Source of the DNA: Trichocoleus sp. FACHB-46 | GTDB taxonomy: Bacteria; Cyanobacteriota; Cyanobacteriia; FACHB-46 | Direction: 5' to 3' | DNA length: 46,516 nt | Assembly: GCF_014695385.1 (NCBI RefSeq) | Contig: NZ_JACJOD010000021.1 | Coordinates: 1-46,516 of the forward strand | Translations under genes and position numbers: made by a program | Shown here: piece after piece, positions 21,350 through 45,235 of the stretch | Position numbering within the stretch: position 1 is the first letter of the stretch | Layout: the number at the start of each line of letters is the position of its first letter | Notes under the pieces: generated by a model | Told to the model about the DNA's origin: nothing | The model's input: only the letters and a program-made list of their open reading frames with translations | The model's database searches: none

Positions 21350-22228
21350 TCACCGACAAAGCAGAAAATCGTTACTCACTTGTCCATTTGTTGCAGCAAA
21401 CCCGTTGAGAATATTGCCATTGAAGATGCCTTTGCCAAAGATCATGTCAACTTCTGCAACTCGAAATGGCGGTACAATTTTGTTCTTTACCACCTTAACT
21501 TTGACTCGAATGCCGTATTCCTCCATCCCTCTCTTTAATGTTTGAATCCGGCGAGTATCTAGTCGCATTGAGGCATAATATTTGAGAGCATGACCGCCTG
21601 TGGTTGTTTCCGGACTGCCATAAACGACACCGATCTTCAAACGCAATTGATTCAGGAAAATTAACGTACACTGACTATGCAGACAGTTCATCAAGCGTCG
21701 AAGCGCTTTGCTCATCAACCATGCAATGGAAGTCGTGGGAAAATCGCCCATATCCGCTCGAATCTCTGACTCTGTCACCAGTGCAGCGACAGAATCCACC
21801 ACAACTAGATCAACACTCTTGGAACGCACCAGTTGTTCCACTAGTTCCATTGCCGTTTCACCACTATCAGGCTGGCTGACCAACACCTGATCAATATCCG
21901 CTCCGAGCGCAGATGCGTAGTGTGGATCAAGGGCATGTTCCATATCAATAAAAGCAGTAGTGCCTCCTAGCTTCTGCATTTGGGCGATCGCTTGCAATGC
22001 TAACGTAGTTTTACCACTACTTTCTGGACCATAAATTTCGACAATGCGTCCTCTGGGATAACCTCCTCCTAATGCTAGCTCCAACTCAGTTGAGCCGCTG
22101 GAGAAGGTTTTTACATTCATGTGCCTGGCATCTCCCAGACGCATGATAGAACCATTCCCGAATTCCCGATTAATCTTTGCCAGTGTTCGTTCCAGGTCTG
22201 ATTTCTTAGTCGCCAATTTGTTAGCCAT
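21350..22228 (-). CDS. recA: Short RecA paralog
   Basis: A 292-residue RecA-family recombinase. Walker A is GPESSGKTT (residues 67-75); other motifs are [32 protein letters not shown], the L2-side [28 protein letters not shown] and VDMIFGKGI. Bacterial RecA is about 350 residues; here the protein leaves the family pattern after FGKGI and stops, losing most of the C-terminal domain that restrains DNA binding. The L1 region ([19 protein letters not shown]) also differs from the usual GDxHxGLQARLMSQALR. It is probably a plasmid-borne second RecA. No LexA-like box was seen. A hairpin terminator lies just upstream. Confidence 0.85.
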
Positions 22229-22517: not shown

Positions 22518-23938
22518 TACTCCCCGCCATCGAACGGCAAGGCTTTCTTAGGTTAGGCTAGAAATTGACCGTTTCTAAACTTGACCCTAAAAGGCATACT
22601 CACTTTGCCTCTACACACTCCACTGAAGTCAATCCCCAGCATTGTGCTTACCTTTCGCATGATGTTACAACTCCCGTGGCAATCGGAATTAAGGAGCCAC
22701 CCTTTCCCGGTTTGATACAACCCGCGCACCATCCGTTTTCCTGATGCCACCCACCCTTCAGGTTTCGCGCCGAAAACAGGTAAGGGGTCATTGTCGAAAA
22801 ACGAACTTTGAGACGTATAGGATTCTTCCGTCTCCACAACCCGAATTCCGAACATGAGAGCGAGTTGCTGGATGCGACTGAATAGCTTGTAGTGGGGAAT
22901 CTGAACAAATTCCTGATTGGTCTTACTCCCCAAATTCACACCATCTTTTTGGCGTTTATTGCGGCCATAGACGATGGTATCAATCCTGTTTTCCAGGCAG
23001 AAGTTAATGATCCATCGCGCGGCCTGGTTGATGTAGTTGCGAACATAGCAATTACGTTTGTGGGTTTCTAGCTGGATGCGCTTAGAGGTTACACCTTTCA
23101 GGTTTTTTTTGCCATGAGTCAAGATAGATTTGAGTTCAGCGACTCGCTTGTTGTACTACTGATTTTTTGATTTCAACTCCCTGCCATCTAGAAGAAAAGC
23201 TAATCCGGTATTCGTTATGCCAGCCAATAAATTGTCTAAGCCAGGATCAAGCGCTAGAACATTTTCAGGGTGGAGTTTGCAGGAAGTAGCCGCCTTCTCC
23301 ATCGACGGGTAGACATATTCAACAATCCATTGCCCATTGGCAGGAATGAACCGCAATTCGCGAATCTGCACATCCTTCAACCGTTCTGGCAGTGGGATGT
23401 AGAAACAATCCTGAGCGAATGCAGCGGCTCCACCTTTACCTAGTGGCACCCGAATCAACCCATTCTCAACCTTGAGGGATTGCCCTGTGAAAACCACCTG
23501 AGACAACCCGCCCTTAGTGCGGTATCTCGGCAATTTGGGTGCATACTCCAACTCACCCAGCTTCAACAATTTTGATAATGCCTTGAAACTCTTGAACGCT
23601 TCATTAACCGATTTCAAAACCTGTTGTGCAGCTTGGGAGTGCAACAATTTGCCATTCTCGCTTTCCTTCAGTGCAGCGTAGAGACTGGTGTACTTCAACA
23701 TCTTGAAAGGCTGACAACCATTCGCAAAGAAGTATTGACGGGATTCGTAGACTCCCTGGTTATAAATATTGTTGGCTAACCGCGCCAACTCAGCAAGCAA
23801 CCGGGCAAGTTGCTTGTCTGGCGAAAACACATCTTTTTGAACGGCCAGAAACATGGTAATCTGCGAACATTTGCACTATTTTACACTCTGCCTGCAATAG
23901 CAGGCGCGGAACCCGTTCTGCATCCCCGTCCCGAACGA
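22518..23938 (-). mobile_element. IS200/IS605-type element with tnpB only
   Basis: The predicted element carries tnpB and no tnpA (IS1341-like layout). The right end, read on the minus strand, has a hairpin (GCCGTTCGATGGC) followed by GGGGAGTA. The left end has a GCCTGC/GCAGGC hairpin at 23890-23905. No target duplication is expected; the tetranucleotide GTGA (TCAC on the element strand) borders both ends. The second element in this window shares the GGGGAGTAT right tip. The exact ends are inferred. Confidence 0.6.
22553..23854 (-). pseudogene. tnpB: TnpB (IS1341-type) with in-frame TAG
   Basis: Read through, 433 codons form a TnpB-like RNA-guided nuclease. The RuvC-I Asp is in VLALDPGLDNLLAGI, the NKRQKDGVNLGSKTNQEFVQIPH block is typical of cyanobacterial members, the Glu is in TEESYTSQSSFFD and the late Asp in LNSDCHGSCNIMRK. 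A single TAG at 23156-23158 follows RELKSKNQ; the frame is the same on both sides (YNKRVAELKSILTHG continues). The TAG replaces a Tyr/Trp/Gln codon. No CxxC zinc ribbon is seen. It is inactive unless the stop is suppressed. Confidence 0.75.
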
Positions 23939-24209
23939 GTGAGGTTTGATCCGGTTTCCAAATCTTCCAGTGATTGATAGATTCCTTGAGAATGAAGGGC
24001 TTCAATCCACTTAGAGAGTAGATCACTCTTGAATCTGGCTCTTTGGCAGGAATGGTTTGCTGCCAAAGCAAGTCTTCTCCAAGAAATTTAATGATGTTGG
24101 TTGGTTCAGAAGGATTATTGCCAGCGGAATCTGGATGTTCCTCAATAGAGATTGTCGGGAGTGCCCAAAAGCTTTGAAGCAGAGCACCGTAGTTCGGTGT
24201 CGTGGTCAT

Positions 24210-24760
24210 GGTCGTTGTCTCCGCTCACTGCCAAAAAACATCCGACGTAGGAGAAAGGCAGAAACCTGCATAATTGCAGGTATTAAGGTTTCAATTCCCT
24301 GAGCTATCCAACTGAGCGATCGCAGTCGAGGTCGAATTCGCTAAAGCAGCGTTGCAAGCGTTTGTAGTGAGGTTGATTTAGGCATTGCCACAAAATGCCG
24401 TTGCCAGTTCCGCCAAATTGACGGTCTTGCCCGAAATAAGGCAACGAGAACCAGAGCGACAAAGGTCAGTCGTGCGCCATGCCAAGCCAAATGGGGCTGC
24501 AAAACCTGCCGTAATTGAGTAATCTGATCATAGGGGTTTCATTGATAAAGAATGTGGTAATTCTCATGAAACTGTCGTGTCGATTTCTAGCTAGCTGAAC
24601 CTTCAACTCTCCTAGAAGGATCTCAGTGTCTCTGACGATCGCACTTCTGCAGGGTGCGGCAGCAGTCCTCATATAAAAATGTGACTTTAACGATAAAGGT
24701 AGGGCAGCGATCAGTTATACATTTCTCAAATCAAAGCACCTTTCCCAGTTAGTTTGTTAA
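24210..24760. other. Spacer with alternative hairpins
   Basis: No gene is recognised. At 24261-24292 the motifs GAAACCT, ACCTGCA, TGCAGGT and AGGTTTC overlap so that two hairpins exclude each other: ACCTGCA with TGCAGGT (loop TAAT), or GAAACCT with AGGTTTC. It lies in the leader of the split DUF1998-like gene and may be an attenuator or an old transposon end. The rest is unremarkable. Confidence 0.35.
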
Positions 24761-26803
24761 TCATTGACAGCGATCGCCTTGTGAATCTTCAGAATTAAAT
24801 TGGCTGAATGTATAGCGTACTGTTTTCGCTGCATTGAGTGAACATTTAACTATAACAAACTGACTAGTCTCTTCTTTGCGATTTCCAGTGTTTGGATCAA
24901 AGCTGACCTTACCTGTGGCACCCTCCGTTAGCTGCTGCTTAACCAATTCTTTTCGAACCGCATCACGAGCTCCTTGAAACCCGCCCTTGGTTCGATTTTG
25001 AGTTGGCATCTTTTCAAAAGCAGAAGCCAGTATACGAGTGGCATCATAGCTGGTTGCTGTAACCCAGCTAACCTCAAAAGTTTGCCATAAGGTCTTAGCT
25101 GATTGAAGAAACGCTGAATTATTTGGAGAACTTGGACGAACCCAAGGAGAAACAAATAAAAATGGATGAGGAGAGCCAACTAAATATTCACCTGTTTCTT
25201 TTCCCAAAAGTTCTGGGCTGTAAAGACTGTCGCTACCAATTAAAATAGCTCTTTTCTGGTTTGCCGTGATAATTTCTTTGATATGATTAATATTATCATC
25301 ACCCGGAAATAGAATGAGGGTTTTAGCTCCAGATGCTATTGCTTCGTTAACAGCTTCTCCTGCATCGAAGTTACTTGCGCGTAGATTAAAATCTTTGACG
25401 ACTAATTTAAGGTTTCCTTTGTCCTTATTTGATAAGTCATCGCAGAAGTTTTTTCTTAAAGAATAAGGATAGGGATCATCAGATTTTCTCGGAGGTTCGC
25501 TGCAAGGAGGAAAGTTTTCAAGCTCTCCCTCAGAACTCCCTGAATAGAAAATGGCTACTGGCTGTAATGAATCATGAAACGAACGGTACGCAGGAGATGA
25601 TTCAAATAGAAAATTAGTGATTTTTCTCGTAGTAACACTGTCGCTTGGTACAGTGCGAAAACAAAATCCATCGCCTAACTCATTGGCAGCTTTGCAATCC
25701 CTTGAGAACTCTTCTGATGTAGATGTTGGGCTCACAAACACGAGCCCTCTACGGTTGTACTCACCAAGTGCCTTAACTGTTGAAGCACTGAAAAACGGAC
25801 CTACAACAGCAATTATATCGGTATTATCAGCTATTTTCTGGGCGGTGCTATTAGCAACTTCAGGTTGATCTTTATAATCAATTATGACTTTTAAGCCCTT
25901 CTTTTTGATTAGTTCTGGTGAAGCGTTAATCTCGTTCTGAGCTTGAGCCACCCCTCGTAAAACTTCTGCTGCCAAAACTTCTTGGGAAGGTGTGAGAGTA
26001 GCAATTGTGTAGCTTTCGATTTTGCGAGAAATAAGATAAGAGTTGTTTAAATGAATAACTGCTTCTGGATTATTCCTATTGAACTTTAACGCTTCACAAA
26101 AGGAATCAATTGCTGAGTCGTACTCTCGTTTATCGTAGTAAGCTTTACCTTCTTTTGTTTTCTTCTTTGATGATTTATCTCTTGTTTCTAGTGACTGATT
26201 AGATGCGTTAGATCGGAGGATCCTTTGCCCACATTCTTCATCAACAGTAGAACCAGCTAATTCTCGCGATTCTAAAAATGACACAAGTATTTTGCTAAGT
26301 CCTGCTAAAACTCCAATTCCTATTGCAGAGACGAGTGCTGCTAATAAAAAAATTATTAGTAGCCGGCGGATTTTCAATCTTGCAGGAATGAGGTCTAACT
26401 CACGTGCTAGTTCACTGGGTAGTAAAACTCTTACTCTATGACTAGGAACATGACTAGAAATTCTACTCAACTCATTTCTATAAAGATTATCGTTAGCAGT
26501 AACAATTACATCATATTGTTGTTGAGCTGCACAGAAACAAGCAACTCCTACCTCTTCTAGAAAACGAGAAGCCTCTCCTGTCTCAGGAGCTATATGAGGT
26601 ATTTTATTTCTAATGTTTTGAATAAATATTTCTTTTTCTGCTTCTGTTCCTCCTCTTCTCTCTCTTATTACCGTTAGAGTCTTTTCAGTTATATACCCTT
26701 CAACTCGTCCTCCTCTGCTCCAATCAATCACTTTTTGACAATCTTCAAAATCTTCTGCTAAAAATGCGTTGATAATTATGTCGCTAACTACCAAGACTTT
26801 CAT
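24761..26803 (-). CDS. PIN-like domain / TM / TPR / periplasmic-binding fusion
   Basis: A 680-residue multidomain protein. Residues 1-135 look like a PIN nuclease fold: MKVLVVSDIIINAFLAEDF with D8, TEKTLTVIRE with E40, and YDVIVTANDNLYRNEL with D105. The usual fourth acidic residue before CAAQQQ seems replaced (GVACFCAA). Residues about 147-176 form a membrane helix (LLIIFLLAALVSAIGIGVLAGL). Residues 218-260 resemble one TPR (GKAYYDKREYDSAIDSFCEALKFN). From 263 on it is a branched-chain-type periplasmic binding protein: TIATLTPSQEVLAAEVLRGVAQAQNEIN, IAVVGPFFSASTVKALGEYNRRGLVFVSPTSTS and SYDATRILASAF. No secretion signal is present; topology would put PIN inside and the sensor outside. An XRE regulator lies upstream. 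Confidence 0.75.
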   Translation of the reverse strand: MKVLVVSDIIINAFLAEDFEDCQKVIDWSRGGRVEGYITEKTLTVIRERRGGTEAEKEIFIQNIRNKIPHIAPETGEASRFLEEVGVACFCAAQQQYDVIVTANDNLYRNELSRISSHVPSHRVRVLLPSELARELDLIPARLKIRRLLIIFLLAALVSAIGIGVLAGLSKILVSFLESRELAGSTVDEECGQRILRSNASNQSLETRDKSSKKKTKEGKAYYDKREYDSAIDSFCEALKFNRNNPEAVIHLNNSYLISRKIESYTIATLTPSQEVLAAEVLRGVAQAQNEINASPELIKKKGLKVIIDYKDQPEVANSTAQKIADNTDIIAVVGPFFSASTVKALGEYNRRGLVFVSPTSTSEEFSRDCKAANELGDGFCFRTVPSDSVTTRKITNFLFESSPAYRSFHDSLQPVAIFYSGSSEGELENFPPCSEPPRKSDDPYPYSLRKNFCDDLSNKDKGNLKLVVKDFNLRASNFDAGEAVNEAIASGAKTLILFPGDDNINHIKEIITANQKRAILIGSDSLYSPELLGKETGEYLVGSPHPFLFVSPWVRPSSPNNSAFLQSAKTLWQTFEVSWVTATSYDATRILASAFEKMPTQNRTKGGFQGARDAVRKELVKQQLTEGATGKVSFDPNTGNRKEETSQFVIVKCSLNAAKTVRYTFSQFNSEDSQGDRCQ

Positions 26804-27009
26804 AGAGGTACTTCCTCTCTATGAAAAATGACTAGAAACGGTAACTGAGTAAGTATTCTCAAAGCGTTACTGGTGGGGGACAAAGATTATCAGAATTAGA
26901 AAGTCGAAAAGATAGGAACTTAAACATAATCTCACATAAGACTTGCATCTTCATGAAATCTATAGAGCTAAGTTCATTTTCTACTGTCGGATTGGTTCTT
27001 ATCGATTGA

Positions 27010-27318
27010 TTACGAGTTCTCTGATTGCGAATCCTCGAATAAATCCTCAAAGCTACAACTAAGGACTTCGCAAAGCTTGCGAATTCGGAAAAACACATCG
27101 CTTCCATCGCGTCCCCGCTCCCAGTTTGCAAAAGTAGATTCTCTGACCCCTAATTCAAGTGCCACATCTAATTGGGTGAGTCCCCTTGCTCTACGAAGTT
27201 CGCCAAGCATCAGTTTTGTCCTAGCTTCACTGGTTGGTGTCTTCTTCCTGGAGCTTCCACCAACCTTCTCTGCTTCGTGGGACTCAGTTGCTTTCTGGAA
27301 TTTTTTCTCAGTTGACAT
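27010..27318 (-). CDS. XRE-family transcriptional regulator
   Basis: A 102-residue protein with a basic, low-complexity N-terminus (about 30 residues) and one Cro/C1-type HTH: LGELRRARGLTQLDVALELGVRESTFANWERGRDGSDVFFRIRKLCEVLSCSFEDLF. The ATG at 27318 is clear. It is 207 bases upstream of the PIN-sensor fusion on the same strand and divergent from the peptidoglycan hydrolase. It could control either gene; the shared orientation favours the fusion gene. The 207-base gap shows no further gene. Confidence 0.85.
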   Translation of the reverse strand: MSTEKKFQKATESHEAEKVGGSSRKKTPTSEARTKLMLGELRRARGLTQLDVALELGVRESTFANWERGRDGSDVFFRIRKLCEVLSCSFEDLFEDSQSENS

Positions 27319-27682
27319 ATTTTTTGACCGCTAATTGGATAGTGATGCGGGTGAACTTTTGAGCTAACACAAAGCATTTCAGTGAAAGCTCATGACTACT
27401 TTTTCTACAGCTGCATCGGGGTCGACAGTGCTCCCAAGTCACGTATCCAGACTAACAAATTTCTGGGTTAACAAAACTAACAGCAGAACAATTCACAAAG
27501 AAATGTTACAAGAAGTTCCTTCTAGTAATTATCTGCTATGTTCAAAAGTAGGTGATAAATCTTAGATTAAATTTCATCTACGAAATCTTGAGGGTTCTAG
27601 GAACAGCTACTCGAGTATCGCCACAACACATGGTTAATCGAGCTGAACTAAAAAAGTCACACTACTCTTGGAGAAACAAATC
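27319..27682. promoter_or_regulatory. Divergent promoter region between XRE and hydrolase genes
   Basis: The 364-base spacer separates two divergent genes and should hold both promoters. An AGAAG-TTC-CTTCT inverted repeat is visible near 27508-27525, a possible small operator. I cannot assign -10/-35 boxes with confidence. Confidence 0.35.
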
Positions 27683-29314
27683 ATGGCATTAGTTAAAGAG
27701 ATTACGGGTTGCGAGACCAGCCCAGTCCGCAGTCTAGACCAGCAACTGATCGATGAAGTAAATGTCATCATCCCCAATGTTCTGGTTAGCATAGAGGATT
27801 TGAATGTGGAATTGACGGGTTCCTCCGTCTGGACCCTATTGCAACTACCAGCAAAAGAGGCTCTTGGACGGGCCATTGCGGAACGAGGGGAAATACTGCA
27901 AATTAACTCGGGTTACCGCCCTCTTGCTGGACAGTTGGTGTTGTTCCAAAACGCTAGTGAATGCGGTTATGAGGTAGCGCCTGTAGGTAGTAGTGATCAT
28001 CAGAGTGGCTTAGCTCTGGACATCGAAGACAACGAAGGCTGGCGGCCTTACCTAGAGCGGCACGGTTGGAAATGGTTTGGTCCTGCAGATGACGTGCATT
28101 TTGACTTTGAAGGACAGGATATTGGCAACACGGCTATCCTAGCTTTCCAGCAGCTTTGGAATCGCAACAATCCTAACGACCCTATTCCAGAGGACGGCAT
28201 TTATGGAGATCAAACCGAGATCCGGTTAGGCAACTCGCCTGCCGAAGGGTTTCCACCACCAGTAAATGGAGGACTACCGTTAGAACCAGGAACTTATTTT
28301 CTCAAGTGTTTAGGTGACGTCGAAGGACCCCGCTGGCTCGATGGGCGGACAGGCGACGGCACCGTTGGCTTAGCCCCGAACACCGACCCTCCCTATACGG
28401 GCATCAAATGGGAGGTAACTTTTGACGAGGCTGCCTCCGCCTACAGATTTAAATGTCTAGGTGACGTCGAAGGACCCCGCTGGCTCGATGGGCGGACAGG
28501 CGACGGCACCGTTGGCTTGGCTCCGAACACTGACCCTCCCTATACGGGCATCAAATGGGAGGTAACTTTTGACGAGGCTGCCTCTGCCTACAGATTTAAA
28601 TGTCTAGGTGACGTCGAAGGACCCCGCTGGCTCGATGGGCGGACAGGTGATGGTACCGTTGGCTTGGCTCCGAACACTGACCCTCCCTATACGGGCACCA
28701 AATGGCAAGTTGAACCGGCTGTTATCCCAGAAAATCCCAACGCCATTCTCTATGAGCTCACTCCTACGGGTGCCAGTGCCGAGACGGCGGAATCCGACGG
28801 GTTGCCAGGTGGCGGTGAATCATCACGCAAGATGGCCGAGACGGACGCGCCGAAAGTGCTGCGTTTCGTCGAGCGCTTTCAGGTAGCGGGGAGGGAGTAT
28901 AACCTGCCGCCTGCCCTGCTCGCGGCGATTGCCAGCCGTGAAAGTCGCGGCGGTTCTGCGCTCAACGATTGCCTAGGTGACGGCGGTGCCGGTGTCGGCA
29001 TCATGCAAGTCGATCAAACTGTACGTCCCCCTGCTGAGGTGACAGATCCGGGGCCTGACTGTGCTAGCCAGGAGCATATCAACCAGGCGGCATCAATCCT
29101 GCGCGGGTTCGTTGACCAGGCAGCCGCCGCCCATCCTGAATGGAGCGCGGCAATCCAGCTTCAGGCTGGCACCGCGTCGTACAACGCTGGCCCAGACCAG
29201 ATAGAGGTACCCGACTTCGATGAGGGCACAACGGGCGGCGATTACTCGAATGATGTGATTGCCCGAGCGCAATACTACGCCGACAATTGGCGGTCCCCAG
29301 CAGCAGTCGTCTGA
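27683..29314 (+). CDS. VanY / PG-binding / three-repeat / goose-lysozyme hydrolase
   Basis: A 543-residue protein from the ATG at 27683 (GGAG 9 bases before). Residues about 70-142 are a VanY-type D,D-carboxypeptidase: SGYRPLAGQ, SDHQSGLALDIED (H106, D113) and DDVHFDF (H139). Residues about 150-182 resemble a peptidoglycan-binding domain (AFQQLWNRNNPNDPIPEDGIYGDQT). Three 49-residue repeats follow (core KCLGDVEGPRWLDGRTGDGT). The last about 155 residues are a goose-type lysozyme/SLT domain: IASRESRGG with the catalytic Glu, GAGVGIMQVD and ASYNAGP. It should cut both peptide and glycan. No signal peptide is visible, so export would need lysis, a holin-like pore or a contractile injection system. 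Confidence 0.85.
   Translation: MALVKEITGCETSPVRSLDQQLIDEVNVIIPNVLVSIEDLNVELTGSSVWTLLQLPAKEALGRAIAERGEILQINSGYRPLAGQLVLFQNASECGYEVAPVGSSDHQSGLALDIEDNEGWRPYLERHGWKWFGPADDVHFDFEGQDIGNTAILAFQQLWNRNNPNDPIPEDGIYGDQTEIRLGNSPAEGFPPPVNGGLPLEPGTYFLKCLGDVEGPRWLDGRTGDGTVGLAPNTDPPYTGIKWEVTFDEAASAYRFKCLGDVEGPRWLDGRTGDGTVGLAPNTDPPYTGIKWEVTFDEAASAYRFKCLGDVEGPRWLDGRTGDGTVGLAPNTDPPYTGTKWQVEPAVIPENPNAILYELTPTGASAETAESDGLPGGGESSRKMAETDAPKVLRFVERFQVAGREYNLPPALLAAIASRESRGGSALNDCLGDGGAGVGIMQVDQTVRPPAEVTDPGPDCASQEHINQAASILRGFVDQAAAAHPEWSAAIQLQAGTASYNAGPDQIEVPDFDEGTTGGDYSNDVIARAQYYADNWRSPAAVV
28305..28716 (+). repeat. Three tandem 147-bp coding repeats
   Basis: The unit starting TAGGTGACGTCGAAGGACC occurs at 28311, 28458 and 28605, an exact 147-bp period (49 codons). 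The copies differ at only a few silent or near-silent sites (for example ggcgac/ggtgat and aacacc/aacact), so amplification is recent or maintained by gene conversion. The third copy degenerates after TGTKWQVE. The protein unit may be a beta-rich carbohydrate- or wall-binding module. Confidence 0.9.
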
Positions 29315-31137: not shown

Positions 31138-32579
31138 CCGGATCTCCCATTTCTGCTAGCTGTGAGCGTTCTGATCAATACAGTCATCGGCTTCGGACAC
31201 TGAGTAGCTCGCTGGAGCATACAGGCGATCGCCTGCTGATTTGCCTCAAACTTTGCAAAAGAAGCAGGAGCAACTTCCAAGATCGCCTTCGCCCCTTGCA
31301 AATTGGTCAGTTGCGCCTGACTCAGCAACTTTTGAGTTCCCGGCTTAGCAGAAGCGATGACTTTTTGCCAGAGAGCTGATAAATCGGGGGAATTTTAATC
31401 TGTGGCGATTGAAGATCGCTCTGCGACTGCTTTATGGTGGTGTCCGTTCTCGTCTGCTGACTGCTTTTCACTCGCATCGTTGGAAGCATCTGATCGGAGC
31501 AGTAGCATCAAGTTTAACAGACACGTTTCCAGACAGACAGCCGCATTGGTGGTGCGAAGATAATCTTCTGCCTTTTGCAATTGGGTCAAGGATTGATTAA
31601 GAGCATCAAAATCCTAGTGAGAGGTGATTGCCTTCAATGGGTTGTAATTGACAGGGCTGGTGAGCAAGTCCGATGCTTTAGGAGCCGATTTGAGAATGAG
31701 TAGATCGCGATAGGTTTGGAGCAAGCTGCTGAGGATTAGTTTGGGTGTTTTGCCAGAATCCACCAGTGTTCGTGACAATTTAAGGAGTTGAAAGGTATCG
31801 TTGGTGGCGATCGCATTGAGTACTGCCATCAAGTCTGTTTCCGTCACTCCCCCAGTCATTTCAACGACATGGTTCGCAATCACTGCTTCACCGAGCAAGG
31901 TAACCTGACCCAAAAGCTGAAGGGCATCTCGCAAGCCTCCCTCGGCAAACCGGGCGATCGCCATTAAAGCCTCATCCTCGACAGCGATCGTTTCAGCATC
32001 AGCAACCTCTTGCAAGTGCTGTGCAATTGTCTGAATTGAAAGCGCCCGAAAATGAAATACTTGACAACGGCTTACAATGGTCGGCAATACCTTATGCACT
32101 TCCGTCGTACAAAGGATAAAGACTACATGGGGTGGTGGCTCCTCAATGCACTTCAGCAGAGCGTTTTGAGACTGCTGAGTTAGCATATGGCTCTCATCGA
32201 TTAGAAAAATTCGGTAGCGTCCCTGCACAGGTGCAAGGCTACTGCGTTCCACTAAGGCGCGGGCGTCATCCACCCCGTTGTTGGAAGCGGCATCAATCTC
32301 ACTGACATCCAGACTGTTGCTAGTTTCGATCGAGCGACAAGACTGGCAGGTACCACAGGGTTCATCAGTGGGTCCATTGAAGCTCAGACAGTTGAGAGAC
32401 TTGGCAAAGATACGTGCAGTAGAGGTTTTACCCGTTCCCCACGAACCTGTGAAGAGGTATGCCGGGGCAATGTGCATTCGGGCAATGGCACTGGTTAGAG
32501 CAGTTTGGACGTAGGGTTGTCCAACCAATTTTGCCAGAGTTTTAGGACGATATTTTTGATGGAGGGCGACAGTCGGCAT
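31134..32579 (-). pseudogene. dnaX: dnaX (clamp-loader tau/gamma) with two in-frame stops
   Basis: The first 321 codons (32579 to 31614) encode the AAA+ part of DnaX: YRPKTLAKLVGQ, Walker A GSWGTGKTS, the four-Cys zinc module CLSFN then CGTCQSC, LIDESHMLTQQSQNALLKCIEEPP, SRCQVFHF and EGGLRDALQLL. TAG at 31614-31616 stops it. The same frame continues as DFDALNQSLTQLQKAEDYLR, meets TAA at 31395-31397, and continues again as PDLSALWQKVIASAKP and QLTNLQGAKAILEVAPASFAKFEANQQ, a tau-type C-terminal domain. Both stops could be CAG/CAA changed by C-to-T. Without read-through a gamma-like short protein results. GTG 32603 or ATG 32600 are other starts. Confidence 0.8.
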
Positions 32580-33237
32580 GGTGATATTGAGTTTAATCAT
32601 CACGGCGATCGCCCCTAGTCAGGGGCAGTTTGCTCCAGCAGAGATAGTTTAAATGGTTGGCACCCTAAAGCCCTATGATGAGAACCGTTATTAAACTCCT
32701 CTTGCTCCGTTGAATCGCACCATTCAGCTTCTTCAAGTTCACGATCAAAAGATCGTTGATGCCATCCTGACGGAGGTGACTGACAAGCACCTTGAGGATG
32801 CCAAGACATTTTGGGAGCCGATCTTGGAAGGAAGCGGTCAAGACGATGAGTATTGGAACTGGGTGGGCAAGAGCCGTCGATCGAAGTTGCTTCCAGGGGA
32901 TGAGTTATACGCGATCGAGTGCGAGGGTATCACTCAAGGACTGATGATGCTCGATGTTTTGAAAAAACGCTGTCAGATTGAATCTCAGTTGCGACGACGG
33001 TTAGTGTACATCAGTGCTTTAACAACCGCCCCTTGGAATCGCCCCCTCATCATTAACCCTCCAACTTATAAGGGCATTGGGGGCAATCTGGTAGAGTTTG
33101 CGAATGTGCTTCGCACACACTTCGTGAACGCCCGCAGCCACGAACTGGGTTATCAAGGCAGAATCGGGTTACATGCCCTGCCAGGTGCGCTAGGATTCTA
33201 TAGAAAGCTGAGAGTTGGACTGCTCAACTGTGGTCCT

Positions 33238-33330
33238 GATCCTGAAGAACCCGTTGACATACTCCCCGTCCTAAAGGACGTGGGATTCTAAAGGCTCAAA
33301 CAGCAGTTGCAGGCAAAGCCTGTCTGACAC
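33238..33330 (-). ncRNA. Predicted omega-RNA 3' part and guide
   Basis: In IS200/IS605 elements the omega-RNA spans the end of tnpB and the right end, with the guide read from flanking DNA. Here the hairpin CGTCCTAAAGGACG (33269-33282) and the tip GGGGAGTATG precede the flank, so the guide would be the complement of about 33238-33257. Extent upstream into tnpB is not determinable from sequence alone. Confidence 0.45.
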
Positions 33331-34492
33331 TGCCTAACCCAACCATTGATGCCCCAACGGTTTGAATATTTTTTGAGGCGTTGTCATCTCTGCCGTTGAT
33401 TGATTGGCATGAGGGGCAACGCCATTGTCTGACCGATAGATCCAGTGACTCTAAAACATGACCGCACTGGTGACACGTTTTTGAACTGGGATACCACTGG
33501 TCAATGAAGACAACTAACTTGTGCTTTTTCTTGGCTACCCATTCGAGAATTTGCAAGAACTCTCCCAGTGCCAAATCTTGAATCTTGCGACCCCAAAGCC
33601 GTTGCATTCCTTTGAGATTTAATGTCTCAAAGCACAGCACATCAAAACGGTTGGTGAGTTCATGAGCTAACTTCCAGAACCAATCACGCCTCTGGTTAGC
33701 AATCTTTTCATGCTGCCTGCATAAGTGCTTTCTGGCTTGCTCACGGCTCTTAGAACCCTTTTGCTTGCGAGAGAGCTGCTTATTGGCTCTGCGAATGGCA
33801 TTCAGCCCTTGTTTGAAGAATTGGGGTGATTCAATTTTGGTGCCATCGGAGCAAGTTAAAAATACATGCAAGCCGAAATCGAACCCCGCTAATTTATCAG
33901 TCGCGAATTCAACTTCTGGCTCCATTGCATCATCCACCACAACCATCATGAATAGCTCACCTAATGGTGTTCGCTTGATGGTCAGGGTTTTAACTGTGCC
34001 CTCAATTGCTCTGGAGTTCCAATATTGAAACACTCGATTGCCAATCTTCACTCGATTGCCGCTCAAGAATTTGTAGCCAGCTTGTTTGAGCGTGAAGGAT
34101 TTGTATTTCTTGACCTTCTTAAATCCTGGTGGTTTAACCCCCTTTTTGTGATGTTTGAAAAACAGTTGATAGGCTTTCTCAATGCGCTCACAAATGTCTT
34201 GCACTGCTTGAGAGCCAACCAATTGCCAGAATGGGTTACGCTTTCGTAATTTAGCAATATGAGCTTTGAGTTTATTACAATTCAGATGTTTGCCCCACAT
34301 CCGGTAATACCGCTTGTGGAGGGCAATACATTTGTTGTAAACGACTCCAGCCGCATTAATGCACCGCTTCAAATAGCAGTTGCGTTTGTGCTGATAGAGC
34401 TTAAACTTCAAAGTCCTCATGACAAAATATTAGTACAAAAGAACCATTAAAAGTTCCCCTAAAGGGCAAGGTTTTAGACCCATTTTTTTTGA
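33258..34492 (-). mobile_element. IS200/IS605-type element with intact tnpB
   Basis: Ends were set by rebuilding the GNAT gene: left flank ends CCGTTGA (33257), right flank resumes TAACCTC (34493). The two bases GA are shared, so 33256-34490 is equally possible; the length is 1235 bp. The right end has the hairpin CGTCCTAAAGGACG and the tip GGGGAGTATG; the left end has TTCCCCTAAAGGGCA and a run of A on the element strand. There is no target duplication and no tnpA. The element-strand base stretch before the left end is GGTTATC, so TTAT or TTATC is the likely target/TAM. Confidence 0.8.
33296..34420 (-). CDS. tnpB: TnpB RNA-guided nuclease
   Basis: A 374-residue intact TnpB. The N-terminal wedge region starts MRTLKFKLYQHKRNCYLKRC. 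RuvC residues are D in LAGFDFGLHVFLT, E in VLCFETLNLKGMQ and D in SINGRDDNASKNI. A zinc ribbon CHQCGH then CPSC lies between the last two. All catalytic residues of a functional TnpB are present. It would cut DNA next to a TAM using an omega-RNA made from the tnpB 3' end and the right end. It belongs to the element interrupting the GNAT gene. Confidence 0.93.
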   Translation of the reverse strand: MRTLKFKLYQHKRNCYLKRCINAAGVVYNKCIALHKRYYRMWGKHLNCNKLKAHIAKLRKRNPFWQLVGSQAVQDICERIEKAYQLFFKHHKKGVKPPGFKKVKKYKSFTLKQAGYKFLSGNRVKIGNRVFQYWNSRAIEGTVKTLTIKRTPLGELFMMVVVDDAMEPEVEFATDKLAGFDFGLHVFLTCSDGTKIESPQFFKQGLNAIRRANKQLSRKQKGSKSREQARKHLCRQHEKIANQRRDWFWKLAHELTNRFDVLCFETLNLKGMQRLWGRKIQDLALGEFLQILEWVAKKKHKLVVFIDQWYPSSKTCHQCGHVLESLDLSVRQWRCPSCQSINGRDDNASKNIQTVGASMVGLGSVRQALPATAV

Positions 34493-39963: not shown

Positions 39964-39998
39964 AGCAAGGGCTCCGGCTACGTTCCGGAGCCCTTGCT
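39964..39998 (+). terminator. 14-bp GC-rich hairpin before the primase gene
   Basis: AGCAAGGGCTCCGG (39964-39977) pairs perfectly with CCGGAGCCCTTGCT (39985-39998) around CTACGTT, followed by ATTCTTT. It could end transcription coming from the origin, or form a single-strand signal for replication. It overlaps the TTG that could extend the primase frame, arguing for the later ATG. Confidence 0.55.
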
Positions 39999-40086
39999 AT
40001 TCTTTAAGGCAATAAAAACGCCGCGCCATCGAGGTGCTTTTCCAGTGCAGGGTCTTTCCCCTGAGGCGCGACTAAGGTTAAAACTC

Positions 40087-42771
40087 ATGCTGCCCGATTC
40101 CGCAACTGCGCTGATCCAACAGCTTTATCGTCTGATTCTCCATGAGCACCAACAACTTTACGCGGTGTGGCAAGCCGCTGATGTGTTGCAATCGCAGTAC
40201 GAGCGATCGCTGACTCCCGAGACTGTGTTTGCCCATTGTCAAGGCAGACAAACCATCTCAATCCGGTTACTGCAACCTGGCACGAATGTCGCCAAAGCGG
40301 GTTGTATTGACTTTGATGCCCCTAAAGATGGCTCCGATGCTCAGGCGCTTCAGGCAGTTTTGCATCTGGCTCAACGGGTGCAGCAGGCGGCTCATGAGCG
40401 CAATTTATCGACCTACTTAGAATTTAGTGGTCGCCGAGGTTTTCATCTCTGGCTCTTCGCCCAAGCGCCTCTACCTGGGGCCACTTGGATGCGATCGCTG
40501 CAAAATCTCTGTTACCTGGCAGGTTACAAGCCCAAGGAAATCTACCCAGCCACCGCCACGATTGCCCCAGATGGCAAAGCCTCTGGCCGACCCATTCGCC
40601 TACCCTGTGGCGTTCATCAAATCAGTGGCAAGCGCAACGGATTTCTACCCCTCCAAGCCGAGTGGGACGCAGGCTTTCCGGTGGTCCCTGAAGACCAATC
40701 TTCTTTGATGGCACAATTTGAGCCGATGAGTCCGGCTGCGATCGCACGAATAGCAGAAGCGAAGTTGCCAGAAATTCAGACTTCTACAGACGTTGCAGAT
40801 TTTCAAACCACTCCAAAAACTCAACCGCCCAACGCTGCTAACTTTTCAATGCTTGAATCAGACGATCATCCCGCCTGCATTCAGTACCTCCTCCATCAAG
40901 GGGCACCAACAGACCAGGATTACAACGCTGTCAACCTCACTTTGTCTCGTTACGCCATCACCCGAGGGTTGGAGCGCGCTCAAGTGGTTTCCCTCGCCAA
41001 GCGGTTGGCCGAAGCGTCTCCGCATCACCCTACCAGTAAGCTCACCCTCGAAGCGAAGCTACGCAACTTTCATGGCACTTATGCCTCTGCGAGCCGCAAT
41101 CCCCAGGAGTACCAGTGGAGTTGTAGCTACATTCGAGCCAGTCAAGAATTGGTGCGCGGAGGTGGCTGTACGGGCTATGCTTGCCCCTTCTGGCCCTGGG
41201 AGCGGCCCGATGGCAATAATGAGGCCGCTAGACGCGCCGAGCAAGAATTGTTGGGGTACATTCTGTATCATCCAGAAGCGGGGATGCAGGAAGCGCTCGG
41301 AACTGACCTGCCCGCTGAAGGGTTTATTGCCACTGAATCCTCGTTAGACCCAAAAAAACCTCCACTTTACTTGCATCGCTTCCTTTGGGAAGCCCTGGTA
41401 GCGCTCGAAACTGGGGGGAAAGAACTGGTTCCGAGCCTAATTTTGGCTCAGTTGGAGCGAGTTGGGGGTCAAACCTCGGCGTTGTCTACCGAGGCGATCA
41501 ATCAAGCCGCTGCTTATCTCGATGCCTTGCAGGCGCAACCCCCCTGTAGTTGGGAAACGTTTGTCGAGCATTTAAGCAATGTGCGCGAGACAGGGCTGCG
41601 GTTACTGGCCCAGGAACAGGCGGCGACAGCGACGGAGTGGTTGAGCGATCGCGGCCAACCTGTGATGGAAACCTTAGAAACCTTGATCCAGGGATCGCAA
41701 AATCTCCAGCGTCGCAGTGCCGCTCAAACGCTGCCTATGGTCGCCTACAGCCAGGATTTGATTCGCGATCTCTTTGGCAAACCACAGACAGCGATTCCTA
41801 CGCCCGCTCACTGGCTCAATCATGCCCTCAATGGTGGATTGCATCCGGGGCGCTTGTATGTGATTGGAGCTCCTCCAGGGTCGGGTAAAACAACTTGGTG
41901 TGCTTGGTGTGCGGATGAAGCCGCCAAAGCGCGCACCCCGGTCCTGTACGTTTCCTTTGAAATGGGGAGGCAGCAACTTTGGGTCAGTGCTTTAGCCAGA
42001 ATTGCTGGGCTCAATTCCGGATTGATTGAGTCGAAGCACTGGGATGAGCCAGATTACCCCCATGCCTCCTGGTTAAAACAGCAAGTCGCTCACGCCATTC
42101 GCACCTATGATCAGCAGATTGCCGAGCACCTCACCCTGCTGGAGGCGGGTCCAGAAGTCACGGTGGCGCATCTACGAGGCGTGATTGCCCAGGTCAGACG
42201 CAGCGCCAATTTAGACAAACAAGCTCCCGTGCTGGTGGTCGTGGATTACCTGCAACTGATGTGCTGTGGCGATGAAAGTCTTGATTCTGGGGCTAATGAA
42301 GTCCTGCGGGTGTCCAGAGTCGCCACAGGACTGAAGCAATTAGCACGGGACACCCACACCGCTGTGATTGCCATTAGTGACATTAACAAAGCGGCTTATC
42401 AGGAGGCGCTACGCACTGGGACATTAGATATGGGAGCGCTCAGGGACTCATTCAAGATTGCTCATGCGGCAGACTGCATTATGTTGTTACAGACCGGGAA
42501 AGCCCAGCGCGGCAACGACCAACCCAGAGATCAAGTGGACTTGCTCGAAGAACGCTACGCCGGAAACTACGCCAAACTGCGACAACTTCAAGAGGTGCGA
42601 GATCGCTTTCCCCTGAATGAAAAAGCGAAAGCCACCTATGCCCGCCTCAGTTTGCTCAAGAACCGAGGGGGGATGACGGCAGAGCCGTTATTCGTTTACG
42701 AGCGAGCTTATCACCGCTTTATTTCTGTAGATCTTGACTTGGGAGGTGACAATGAATTCGAAGATCTCTAG
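40087..42771 (+). CDS. AEP primase-DnaB helicase fusion
   Basis: An 894-residue protein from ATG 40087 (AAGG 9 bases before). The N-terminal half resembles archaeo-eukaryotic primases of the TOTE type: GCIDFDAPKDG with catalytic acidic residues, LEFSGRRGFHLWLFAQAPL, and RPIRLPCGVHQISGKRNGFLPL. A Cys-containing linker follows (WSCSYIRASQELVRGGGCTGYACPFWP), then a DnaB-like N-domain (AEQELLGYILYHPE) and the RecA-like helicase: GAPPGSGKTTWCAW, YVSFEMGRQQLW, VLVVVDYLQLM and VIAISDINKAA. It should prime and unwind plasmid DNA in one chain. It is followed by the polymerase with a 20-base overlap. Confidence 0.85.
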   Translation: MLPDSATALIQQLYRLILHEHQQLYAVWQAADVLQSQYERSLTPETVFAHCQGRQTISIRLLQPGTNVAKAGCIDFDAPKDGSDAQALQAVLHLAQRVQQAAHERNLSTYLEFSGRRGFHLWLFAQAPLPGATWMRSLQNLCYLAGYKPKEIYPATATIAPDGKASGRPIRLPCGVHQISGKRNGFLPLQAEWDAGFPVVPEDQSSLMAQFEPMSPAAIARIAEAKLPEIQTSTDVADFQTTPKTQPPNAANFSMLESDDHPACIQYLLHQGAPTDQDYNAVNLTLSRYAITRGLERAQVVSLAKRLAEASPHHPTSKLTLEAKLRNFHGTYASASRNPQEYQWSCSYIRASQELVRGGGCTGYACPFWPWERPDGNNEAARRAEQELLGYILYHPEAGMQEALGTDLPAEGFIATESSLDPKKPPLYLHRFLWEALVALETGGKELVPSLILAQLERVGGQTSALSTEAINQAAAYLDALQAQPPCSWETFVEHLSNVRETGLRLLAQEQAATATEWLSDRGQPVMETLETLIQGSQNLQRRSAAQTLPMVAYSQDLIRDLFGKPQTAIPTPAHWLNHALNGGLHPGRLYVIGAPPGSGKTTWCAWCADEAAKARTPVLYVSFEMGRQQLWVSALARIAGLNSGLIESKHWDEPDYPHASWLKQQVAHAIRTYDQQIAEHLTLLEAGPEVTVAHLRGVIAQVRRSANLDKQAPVLVVVDYLQLMCCGDESLDSGANEVLRVSRVATGLKQLARDTHTAVIAISDINKAAYQEALRTGTLDMGALRDSFKIAHAADCIMLLQTGKAQRGNDQPRDQVDLLEERYAGNYAKLRQLQEVRDRFPLNEKAKATYARLSLLKNRGGMTAEPLFVYERAYHRFISVDLDLGGDNEFEDL

Positions 42772-45235
42772 TCCAACCACGGCTGCACCTGAGGCGGAAT
42801 CCAACACTGCCACTGATCCGTTCTATGCGGAGCTGATGGATTGGGCCAAGGCCCGCAAGCAGCAGTTTTTGAGGAATCGGGTCAAGGCCAAGGTGCCGGC
42901 TCCCAGCCCAGCCCCTGTGCCTGCCAAGAGCGAGATGGAAGCCTGGATTGAGAGTTGGTATACCCCACCGTCGCTGTCACCCCAAATGGCTCGACGGCTG
43001 GCCGCAGCGTCTCGGTCTACCCGTAGCAATTCAGAAGAGTTACCCAGCGAGGATCACGTCACCCTGCCGCAAGTTCTAGAAAGCAAACCGACTGCGCTCC
43101 CCCTTCCTCCCCAGTCTGCTCCTCAGCCTAAGCCAAAGCTGGTCCGTTCAGCCGAGGTTGGAGACCTCAACACCTCCTGCCCTCGACATCCTTCTGGGTT
43201 TGTCGTAGGGCAACGATTGCAGTTACGACCTGAGGCTCAGCGCATCCCCGAAGGAGTGCCCCTCGACGCCGTGCTGGTGATTGAAGAGATGTATCTCAAT
43301 CCTTACCGTCAAGCGCAGGGGATCTGGTGTATTTGGTGTCGTAGTGATTCCTTTTCCGGGTTGAAATCGATTGATTCCGATTGTCTGCTCCCGTGCTCAG
43401 AACCAGCGGAGGTCTCGCACCCTGAAATTGCAGGAGATCTCGCAATCGGAAGCGATCGCGCGGATGCGGTAGTTCTGCGACCAGACGGAGTGGCTTACCG
43501 ACTGGTGGAAGAGACTCAGGCCCTGGCCGAAGCTCTCCAGCCCTTGCAGGCTTGTGAGGCCTTGGCGATCGATACGGAGACGACGGGGCTTGATCCGCTC
43601 AAAGATCGCATTCGTTTAGTCCAAATTGCTGGGGCAGATCAACCCGTGGTGATCGTGGACCTCTTCAAAGTACCTCCCGAGGCTCTAGCTCCCTTGCGAT
43701 CGCTGCTCCAAGGCAAATCCATCAAAGTGTTGCAGAATGCCAAGTTTGATCTGAAATTTCTGCAACAGGCAGGACTACCCCTGGGTGGCAAGTTGTTTGA
43801 CACGATGGTGGCTGCCCAGTTGCTAGAGGCAGGTGTGCGATCTCATGGGTATAACTTAGCGGAATTGGTCAAGGTTTATTTGGGAGAGGACCTGTCTAAA
43901 GAACAACAGCGAAGTGATTGGAGTCATCCCAGCCTCTCTTCAGAACAATTGGAGTATGCGGCGCGTGATGCCGCAATCCTGCTTCGGTTGCGTGAGGTAA
44001 TGAAACCTAAGCTGAAAAATGCCCGCTTGGTCGAGACTGCCAAGCTGGAATTTGAGTGCCTGGAGGCGATCGTCCACATGGAACTCAACGGGATGCTGCT
44101 CGATCTCTCACGGTGGGATTCCCTACGACAAAAACTGGAGCAGCGAAGAGACCAAGTGGCGGATGAATTGCGACAACAGTTTCAACCGGTTCTGCTAAGT
44201 GCCCAACTCGATCTCTTGGGAAATGAAGTTTCTCTCAATTTGGACAGTCAGCAGCAGGTATTAGAGGCACTCCAGCAGATGGGTGTGCCAGTGCAGAACA
44301 CTAGTAAGCTTTCTCTGATTCCCCTAGCAGAACAGTATCCACCCGTCAGAGCCTTGCTGGACTACCGTAAAGCCGCCAAAGCCGTTCAAGCGTTTGGTAG
44401 TAGTTTGCCTAAGCACGTGCACCCTATTACGGGTCGGATTCATCCCGACTATCAGCAGATGGGCGCAGCCACTGGGCGTATGTCTTGTCGTAACCCCAAC
44501 CTGCAACAGATTCCAAGAGATAAAGTCTTTCGCAGTTGCTTTATTGCGGCTCCCGGCTATCGCTTAGTGGTGGCAGATTACTCTCAGATTGAACTGCGAG
44601 TTGCGGCTGAGCTGAGTGGCGATCGCCGCATGATTGAGGCTTACCAGAACGATGAAGATCTGCATCGGCTGACGGCAGCGTTGATTGCGGGTAAATCCCT
44701 CGATCAAGTGGAGAAATCGGAGCGGCAGGCCGCCAAAGCCGTCAACTTCGGGCTGATTTATGCAATGGGATCAAAGGGTCTGGCAGAGTACGCCTACAAC
44801 AACTATGGAGTACAGATGAGCCTGAAGCAGGCAGAGACGTTTCGGAGGCGATATTTTGAAGCGTACCAAGGAATTGCTCGCTGGCATGGTGCCATTAAGC
44901 GTCGGTTGCCCAGGGAGATGCGAACCATTGGCGATCGCCTCCGGCGCTGGCAAGATGAACCAAAGCTGACGGAGTTATTGAATACTCCAGTTCAGGGCAC
45001 TGCCGCAGATATTACCAAAGCCGCATTGTCAAAACTCCCTACAGCCTTGAAGGAAACGGGAGCCAGATTAATTGGTACGGTGCATGATGAAATTTTGCTG
45101 GAAGCCCCAGAAAATATGGCAAACCAGGCTGCACAGATTCTCCAGCAGGTAATGGAACAGGCTGGACAGCAGTACTTGAGGAGGGTGCCGGTAAAGGCAG
45201 AAGTCGCGATCACTCTTAATTGGGCGGAGAAATAA
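42752..45235 (+). CDS. polA: Family A DNA polymerase with 3'-5' exonuclease
   Basis: An 827-residue Pol I-like enzyme; ATG 42752 is preceded by GGAGGTGA inside the end of the primase gene. Residues 1-230 are a Pro-rich linker plus a small domain of unknown role; no 5'-nuclease domain is present. The 3'-5' exonuclease has AIDTETTGLDPL, LQNAKFDLKFL and YAARDAAILLRL. Polymerase motifs are A: VADYSQIELRVAAE, B: RQAAKAVNFGLIYAMG, and C: TVHDEILLEAP. Motif B has YAMG where YG is common. All catalytic Asp residues are kept, so it should be an active proofreading polymerase devoted to this replicon. Confidence 0.93.
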   Translation: MNSKISSPTTAAPEAESNTATDPFYAELMDWAKARKQQFLRNRVKAKVPAPSPAPVPAKSEMEAWIESWYTPPSLSPQMARRLAAASRSTRSNSEELPSEDHVTLPQVLESKPTALPLPPQSAPQPKPKLVRSAEVGDLNTSCPRHPSGFVVGQRLQLRPEAQRIPEGVPLDAVLVIEEMYLNPYRQAQGIWCIWCRSDSFSGLKSIDSDCLLPCSEPAEVSHPEIAGDLAIGSDRADAVVLRPDGVAYRLVEETQALAEALQPLQACEALAIDTETTGLDPLKDRIRLVQIAGADQPVVIVDLFKVPPEALAPLRSLLQGKSIKVLQNAKFDLKFLQQAGLPLGGKLFDTMVAAQLLEAGVRSHGYNLAELVKVYLGEDLSKEQQRSDWSHPSLSSEQLEYAARDAAILLRLREVMKPKLKNARLVETAKLEFECLEAIVHMELNGMLLDLSRWDSLRQKLEQRRDQVADELRQQFQPVLLSAQLDLLGNEVSLNLDSQQQVLEALQQMGVPVQNTSKLSLIPLAEQYPPVRALLDYRKAAKAVQAFGSSLPKHVHPITGRIHPDYQQMGAATGRMSCRNPNLQQIPRDKVFRSCFIAAPGYRLVVADYSQIELRVAAELSGDRRMIEAYQNDEDLHRLTAALIAGKSLDQVEKSERQAAKAVNFGLIYAMGSKGLAEYAYNNYGVQMSLKQAETFRRRYFEAYQGIARWHGAIKRRLPREMRTIGDRLRRWQDEPKLTELLNTPVQGTAADITKAALSKLPTALKETGARLIGTVHDEILLEAPENMANQAAQILQQVMEQAGQQYLRRVPVKAEVAITLNWAEK

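Follow-up and report, generated by a model that had tools for sequence, protein, structure and literature searches.

What does a toxin-type nuclease fold do once it has been built into a membrane receptor? The question is raised by a gene on a 46,516-nt contig of Trichocoleus sp. FACHB-46 (NZ_JACJOD010000021.1, assembly GCF_014695385.1; this whole stretch is called the window below), which encodes a PIN-like domain, a membrane helix, a TPR-like unit and a LivK-type ligand-binding domain, and which follows, on the same strand and 206 bp downstream, a gene for an XRE/Cro-type DNA-binding protein (Table 1). The open reading frame (ORF) of the receptor (24761–26803, minus strand) has an ATG start and 680 codons free of internal stops, and the ribosome-binding-like GAGAGGAAG lies 7 bases 5′ of this ATG on the coding strand. 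A previous reading made without database searches (the sequence-only reading) had described this frame and the upstream XRE gene, and both are borne out, the frame by Pfam, profile searches, structure models and Foldseek, and the XRE gene by two Pfam matches. That reading had also proposed an RNase switched by an extracytoplasmic ligand. We find that the PIN domain has probably ceased to be an RNase, and we tentatively see the locus as an XRE-PIN pair of the toxin-antitoxin type that was turned into a ligand-controlled transmembrane sensor, in which a dead PIN domain docks the XRE protein.

The match of the N-terminus to Pfam PIN_3 falls below the curated cut-off (E 0.14, 13.4 bits versus 27), and the assignment therefore needed evidence from outside Pfam. 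Residues 1–142 score 28.6 bits on a profile of 20 cyanobacterial PIN_3 proteins, whereas the best of 2000 shuffled sequences reaches 10.7 bits. AlphaFold predicts this segment with a predicted local distance difference test score (pLDDT) of 87.2 and a predicted template modeling score (pTM) of 0.83, from an alignment that included nine real PIN proteins and may favor a PIN fold. Foldseek, a comparison proposed beforehand, returned mostly VapC and other PIN domains in its top rows (best E 1.5e-3 at probability 1.00, none below 1e-3), and VIA-align superimposes the model on VapC15 with a Z-score of 13.8 (2.5 Å over 117 residues) and on VapC4 with a Z-score of 13.3. The alignment behind a model of the full-length protein placed all of its six PIN sequences on the core and not on the N-terminus, and the PIN part of that model, which has low confidence, was not used. 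Taken together, profile and models support a PIN α/β fold for residues 1–142, as the sequence-only reading had suggested.

Comparison with canonical PIN_3 proteins places Val6, Val85 and Asn104 at the motif-1 Asp, the FED-motif Asp and the T-R-D/N position, respectively, with the placements of V85 and N104 hinging on gaps. In an alternative alignment, a 6-residue gap near the T-R-D motif moves the third column to Asn110, again not an aspartate. All 31 canonical PINs contain D, D and D/N at these positions. As Asn occupies the T-R-D/N position in 6 of them, N104 by itself fits, and only the first two acids are clear losses. The acids previously taken for the triad proved not to be it: D8 aligns to the third residue of the canonical D-T-N, E40 falls in a column without a conserved acid, and D105 is found one residue beyond T-R-D/N. 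The sequence-only reading was thus right about the loss of acidity but not about its extent, since it had counted one missing acid and more than one is gone. D8, E84, D98 and D105 are still located near the active site. Because the canonical acidic positions are changed, the domain is probably not an RNase, and we predict it to be catalytically dead, in line with the earlier hedge that it might bind rather than cut. It further departs from VapC-type toxins, whose acidic active site it lacks, in being part of a 680-aa fusion and not a small stand-alone protein, though an XRE gene adjoins it.

A search for a recurring XRE partner, likewise proposed beforehand, showed that XRE genes recur beside PIN-like proteins with additional C-terminal domains in cyanobacteria. 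Of the 29 best non-self XRE loci, nine have a PIN-like ORF beside the XRE gene (E <1e-3), as detected with a profile of canonical PINs built independently of the sequences in those loci, compared with none of 120 background loci (one reached 0.0016). Profiles derived from the cassettes themselves (xpA and xpB) find such an ORF in 14 of the 29 loci (L031 weakly), a count that is partly circular because both profiles were built from cassettes of the same loci. The reverse search, with eight cassette PIN-like domains, produced matches in 128 of 376 genomes. Among the matches listed, most frames are ∼130–200 aa long, like ordinary stand-alone PINs, and 22 exceed 230 aa, six of which are seeds. The 16 non-seed long frames adjoin an XRE-type gene (seven) or an RHH-like gene (five), contain an apparent, weakly matching DNA-binding part (two; Sigma70_r4_2 at 17.2 bits and DUF6364 at 14.6 bits, both below cut-off) or have neither (two). 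The Sigma70_r4_2 fusion is in addition divergent from an XRE gene within 1 kb. Near canonical PINs, we found a single weak XRE match at 41 loci, which include a few genes retrieved twice. Ordinary PIN toxins commonly have an RHH gene next to them, so that only the XRE contrast is informative.

The linked proteins have also changed in their active site. In one alignment, the FED Asp is kept in none of 28 linked or fused PIN-like domains versus all 31 canonical PINs, and the motif-1 Asp in 18 of 28 versus 31 of 31. The 28 comprise 20 domains with an XRE-type neighbor, five with an RHH-like neighbor, two apparent fusions and one, L262, for which no partner lies within reach; L291 is nearly identical to L292, and L258–L261 lack the FED region or align poorly there. 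Two long proteins without a regulator neighbor (L283 and L284) have likewise lost the FED Asp. Plasmid records of Tolypothrix sp. PCC 7601, Nostoc sp. UHCC 0870 (the same plasmid as L293) and Nostoc sp. N6 annotate a helix-turn-helix gene 11–43 bp upstream of a PIN protein with the Asp lost, while Synechocystis pSYSG and Gloeocapsopsis dulcis have a DUF2281 neighbor and keep the Asp. Cassettes of the type WP_045874895.1/WP_045874894.1 (Tolypothrix sp. PCC 7601) resemble the window in having XRE directly upstream, a PIN-like N-terminus without the FED Asp and an extra C-terminal part. They differ in their XRE proteins, which are of another sequence subtype, and across the cassettes the C-termini are unlike that of the window: Pfam identifies DUF1822 (above cut-off in L240, L244, L245 and L293, below in L232), pentapeptides (L234, L286 and L291), LeuA_dimer (L285, L286, L287 and L290) and Npun_R1517 (L294), while in L235, L236, L238 and L242 a moderately hydrophobic segment is accompanied by a long tail that matches nothing in Pfam.

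Two of these groups merit a separate description. In L285–L290, acid-less PIN-like proteins are fused to a LeuA allosteric domain (by eye in L288 and L289), and an RHH-like gene lies just upstream in L285 and L287–L290; a leucine-type sensor paired with a DNA-binding protein is a possible reading. L294 and L300 (Nostoc sp. UHCC 0926 plasmid pn2) have a PIN-like part and an Npun_R1517 domain, annotated as heterocyst differentiation regulator, in one open frame downstream of an HTH gene, of which the record annotates only the Npun part.

The remainder of the window protein has the makings of a receptor. Residues 143–177 form a single hydrophobic helix (141–179 in the full-length AlphaFold model, whose TPR-LivK region is mostly confident), with five Lys/Arg and three Asp/Glu in the 17 residues before it and two Lys/Arg and five Asp/Glu around its C-terminal end. 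By the positive-inside rule for membrane-protein topology, this basic N side and acidic C side would place the PIN domain inside and the rest of the receptor outside, the topology that the sequence-only reading had assigned. The TPR_11 match is below its cut-off (21.3 bits versus 26.8). For the ligand-binding half, Pfam reports Peripla_BP_6 and ANF_receptor (4e-9) within residues 285–641, and the 4mlc profile and a Foldseek search, also foreseen, agree in pointing to LivK/LivJ-type proteins. A 20-member alignment of the core shows 27–35 percent identity to the window and 30 invariant columns. Ser339 and Tyr586 are invariant in these rows, Thr362 is conserved in 14 of the 20 and Glu539 in 5; Ser339, Thr362 and Glu539 probably correspond to ligand contacts of the Leu/Ile/Val-binding protein.

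This helix-TPR-LivK core is a widespread cyanobacterial receptor core with a variable N-terminal partner. It is matched (1e-12) in at least 218 of 388 cyanobacterial genomes, a lower bound given that three candidates were scored per genome. The best 80 of 530 confirmed candidates were named as loci and come from Planktothrix, Nostoc, Microcoleus, Leptolyngbya, Moorena and others; among viral contigs, 23 pattern matches yielded no confirmed core. The window protein has the helix, the single TPR-like unit and the LivK-type domain in the family order and shares the conserved residues. We collected 161 family ORFs (71 + 90) with 149 distinct C-termini; in one ORF set the N-terminal classes were assigned by eye, with nine examples checked by Pfam. 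The partners include a protein kinase (L012, own genome), CHAT (L011, own genome, and L059), AAA_35 (L095) and nSTAND1 with WD40 (L199); L091 has TPRs and AAA_22/nSTAND2-like matches just under the cut-offs, L010 (own genome) has no N-terminal partner, and the N-terminal parts of L078 and L197 match no Pfam family. In L199 (Cylindrospermum sp. NIES-4074 plasmid2), the TPR-LivK core forms the C-terminal end of a 1731-aa frame that also contains nSTAND1 and WD40 repeats. At L011:7134–11509, a gene recognized by eye as sigma-70-like, one for DUF1822 (304 bits) and that for the CHAT-helix-TPR-LivK receptor lie side by side, resembling ECF sigma/DUF1822/caspase neighborhoods (PMC8195603; statements on this and the other published sources apply to excerpts of them), in which DUF1822 is reported beside ECF sigma and caspase genes.

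Published relatives share part of this design. Proteins that combine a kinase with an ANF receptor are known in cyanobacteria (PMC1262709, PMC2176072), among them alr0344 of Nostoc PCC 7120, which likewise joins an N-terminal cytoplasmic module to an ANF-receptor-type domain and resembles the kinase-helix-TPR-LivK paralogue in the genome of the window; its module is a kinase whereas that of the window is an acid-less PIN, and the excerpts report no XRE partner for the alr0344 type. The metacaspase and ANF_receptor protein of Cyanothece sp. PCC 7424 (PMC3501461) combines, like the window, an effector-type domain with an outside ligand-binding domain, but its effector is of the protease type and not a PIN. 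PIN effectors and TM-PBP fusions are both mentioned in PMC7159879; the TM-PBP fusions in conflict systems (section 33) have the same combination but, unlike the window, are accompanied by an EACC1 gene and are described for actinobacteria and proteobacteria. None of the excerpts presents the arrangement of the window. The earlier statement that no such system had been described thus holds for the PIN-TM-TPR-LivK order, for which, as for XRE/acid-less-PIN cassettes, a full-text search of the open literature found no description, but not for receptors of this kind with a kinase or metacaspase.

How could the parts work together? The usual partner of a PIN toxin is an antitoxin that holds it and doubles as a DNA-binding repressor, as in VapBC. 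Because the acids are lost, the DNA-binding neighbor is kept and other domains are gained, the PIN domain may have become a docking part. In the proposed mechanism, the receptor would reside in the inner membrane with its non-cutting PIN domain inside and its LivK-type domain outside, and the PIN domain would retain the old toxin's hold on a DNA-binding partner, presumably the XRE protein encoded upstream. The LivK domain would bind a ligand, probably an amino acid or a similar small molecule; the change could be relayed through the TPR unit and the helix to the PIN domain, which would then grip or free the XRE regulator and so alter transcription of this operon and perhaps of others. That XRE acts as repressor of the receptor gene, as had been supposed, is plausible because XRE genes recur beside PIN-like fusions. 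VapBC and the Xre-PIN pairs (PMC2701414) share with the window a PIN fold and a small adjoining gene for a DNA-binding protein; the window differs in the missing catalytic acids and in the fusion of PIN to a membrane helix and receptor in 680 aa. That source lists Xre-PIN pairs and states that it excluded three conserved pairs in which Xre is coupled to a membrane protein.

With still more reserve, we suggest that cyanobacteria might have converted XRE-PIN (perhaps RHH-PIN) pairs into ligand-sensing regulators more generally, the toxin losing its acids, keeping its grip on the antitoxin and gaining sensors (the LeuA allosteric domain, DUF1822, pentapeptides or an outside LivK domain). The window would be the transmembrane case, a receptor-regulator pair independent of histidine kinases. 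If true, it would show in a concrete, testable case with many relatives how a toxin-antitoxin module can become a sensory regulator, with a toxin fold holding its own antitoxin under ligand control, and it would add a non-phosphorylation output to the receptor family matched in at least 218 of 388 genomes. It would also caution against assuming nuclease activity for cyanobacterial PIN domain-containing proteins whose genes adjoin an XRE gene.

Membership of the window in the cassette group is favored by an adjoining same-strand DNA-binding gene, a lost FED Asp (V85) and a fused architecture. Its PIN domain scores 34.9 bits on the 28-sequence linked profile versus 28.9 bits on the canonical one (controls were sorted rightly for 28 of 28 linked and for all 8 canonical sequences tested out of 31), and in a tree a 95/93 branch separates it, together with the 28 linked sequences, from the canonical ones. 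A number of observations weigh against the sensor reading. The end branch of the window PIN is very long (2.6), its score on the first, eight-sequence linked profile is 11.5 bits versus 24.8 canonical, and its XRE protein prefers the profile of unlinked XREs (85.2 bits) to that of PIN-linked ones (77.7 bits), in a comparison that placed 19 of the 20 linked and 12 of the 15 unlinked controls correctly. The XRE subtype does not define the group, and the XRE of L281, itself a linked cassette, does not come out as the linked subtype either. The gap of 206 bp exceeds that in the three named plasmid cassettes, two of the 16 non-seed fusions lack an adjoining regulator, and the five RHH calls are weak (the three tested reach 15.9–18.5 bits, below cut-offs). 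Residues 1–179 were found in the own genome only, with no match in other genomes among 59 relatives, including both congeners. Five weak non-self N-terminal matches in the 388 class genomes contained no second fusion: three are stand-alone PIN proteins of 136–142 aa, and two lie in unrelated ORFs. No second PIN-LivK fusion was found among the 161 family ORFs, of which the window alone matches the PIN profile (E 4.5e-7; next best 0.18), or in the 388 class genomes. We treat the window as a probable divergent relative of the cassette group and not as a proven member.

Some of these observations would be accommodated by a membrane-tethered adaptor, in which the acid-less PIN binds RNA or another protein on the cytoplasmic face under ligand control and XRE merely autoregulates the operon or is unrelated. 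A PIN fold without acids, an XRE protein that is not closest to the PIN-linked XREs and the varied cytoplasmic partners of the receptor-core relatives agree with it, while the recurrence of XRE beside PIN-like fusions well above background does not; we regard it as rather doubtful. Alternatively, a degenerate PIN could have been joined to the receptor core in a mobile A+T-rich gene, leaving a decaying or chance fusion without settled function. The restriction of the N-terminal part to one genome of 59 relatives, with both congeners lacking it, would fit, as would the failure of residues 1–179 to match in a plasmid collection, the long PIN branch, the adjoining transposase pieces (by eye) and a G+C content below that of the whole window (0.475), at 0.364 for the PIN part and 0.402 for the receptor core. 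A frame of 680 codons without stop, a confident predicted fold and conserved receptor-core residues speak against decay, which we consider unlikely. Exact peptide patterns retrieved 52 stretches from the species genomes, none of them a relative, and the 3.5-kb flank has no match in the two congeners, an empty answer that is uninformative by the tool's own statement.

Membership in a conflict or cell-death system of the kind found in multicellular prokaryotes, with PIN as a non-enzymatic effector or adaptor, appears very unlikely: relatives of the receptor core do carry CHAT, nSTAND1 and AAA_35, and the CHAT version of the own genome adjoins a DUF1822 gene, of the family reported in PMC8195603 next to genes for ECF sigma factors and caspases, but none of these partners occurs at the window locus and the receptor has no PADLOC match. 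A known defense system was rejected on the same ground, no PADLOC model matching the receptor at 1e-3; the XRE matches there are generic HTH. Least probable of all is the stress or defense switch in which an extracytoplasmic ligand controls an RNase on the cytoplasmic side, the leading idea until the catalytic positions were aligned. It has in its favor a fold near VapC toxins and the remaining nearby acids, and against it the change of all three tested canonical positions, the loss of the FED Asp (the third catalytic Asp), which 0 of 28 regulator-linked relatives keep, and the lack of a PADLOC model matching the receptor.

Table 1. Features of the XRE-receptor locus (positions in the window)
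Feature	Position	Strand	Evidence
XRE/Cro-type DNA-binding protein, 102 aa, upstream gene	27010..27318	-	HTH_31 5.9e-8, HTH_3 3.4e-7 (Pfam)
206-bp gap from XRE stop to receptor start, GAGAGGAAG just before start	26804..27009	-	sequence
PIN-fold domain, residues 1–142, predicted catalytically dead (V6, V85, N104)	26378..26803	-	profile, AlphaFold, Foldseek, VIA-align, alignment
Membrane helix, residues 143–177, N side basic, C side acidic	26273..26377	-	full-length model and charge count
Single TPR-like unit, residues 219–248	26060..26149	-	TPR_11 2.2e-4, below cut-off
LivK-type ligand-binding domain, residues 264–680	24764..26014	-	Peripla_BP_6 1.9e-15; 4mlc profile 2.6e-39; Foldseek ∼1e-15

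A scan of 24200–27900 returned no terminators, and minus-strand promoter-like matches in this interval do not exceed chance level. The contig fits a plasmid or mobile replicon, as judged from its replication genes and transposase-like pieces (by eye); its ends show no terminal overlap and thus no sign of circularity. Positions 39994–45235 contain a replication module, in which a TOTE-type primase fused to a DnaB-type helicase is followed by a family A DNA polymerase, and the same contig encodes RecA (21350–22228) and a DnaX-like protein (31614–32603). TnpB-like transposase pieces, split across frames, adjoin the receptor gene at 22553–24209, and a second TnpB-like gene at 33296–34420 is apparently intact (both by eye). 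A VanY/SLT wall-enzyme-like protein encoded at 27668–29314 contains three near-identical internal repeats of ∼50 aa each, recognized by eye.

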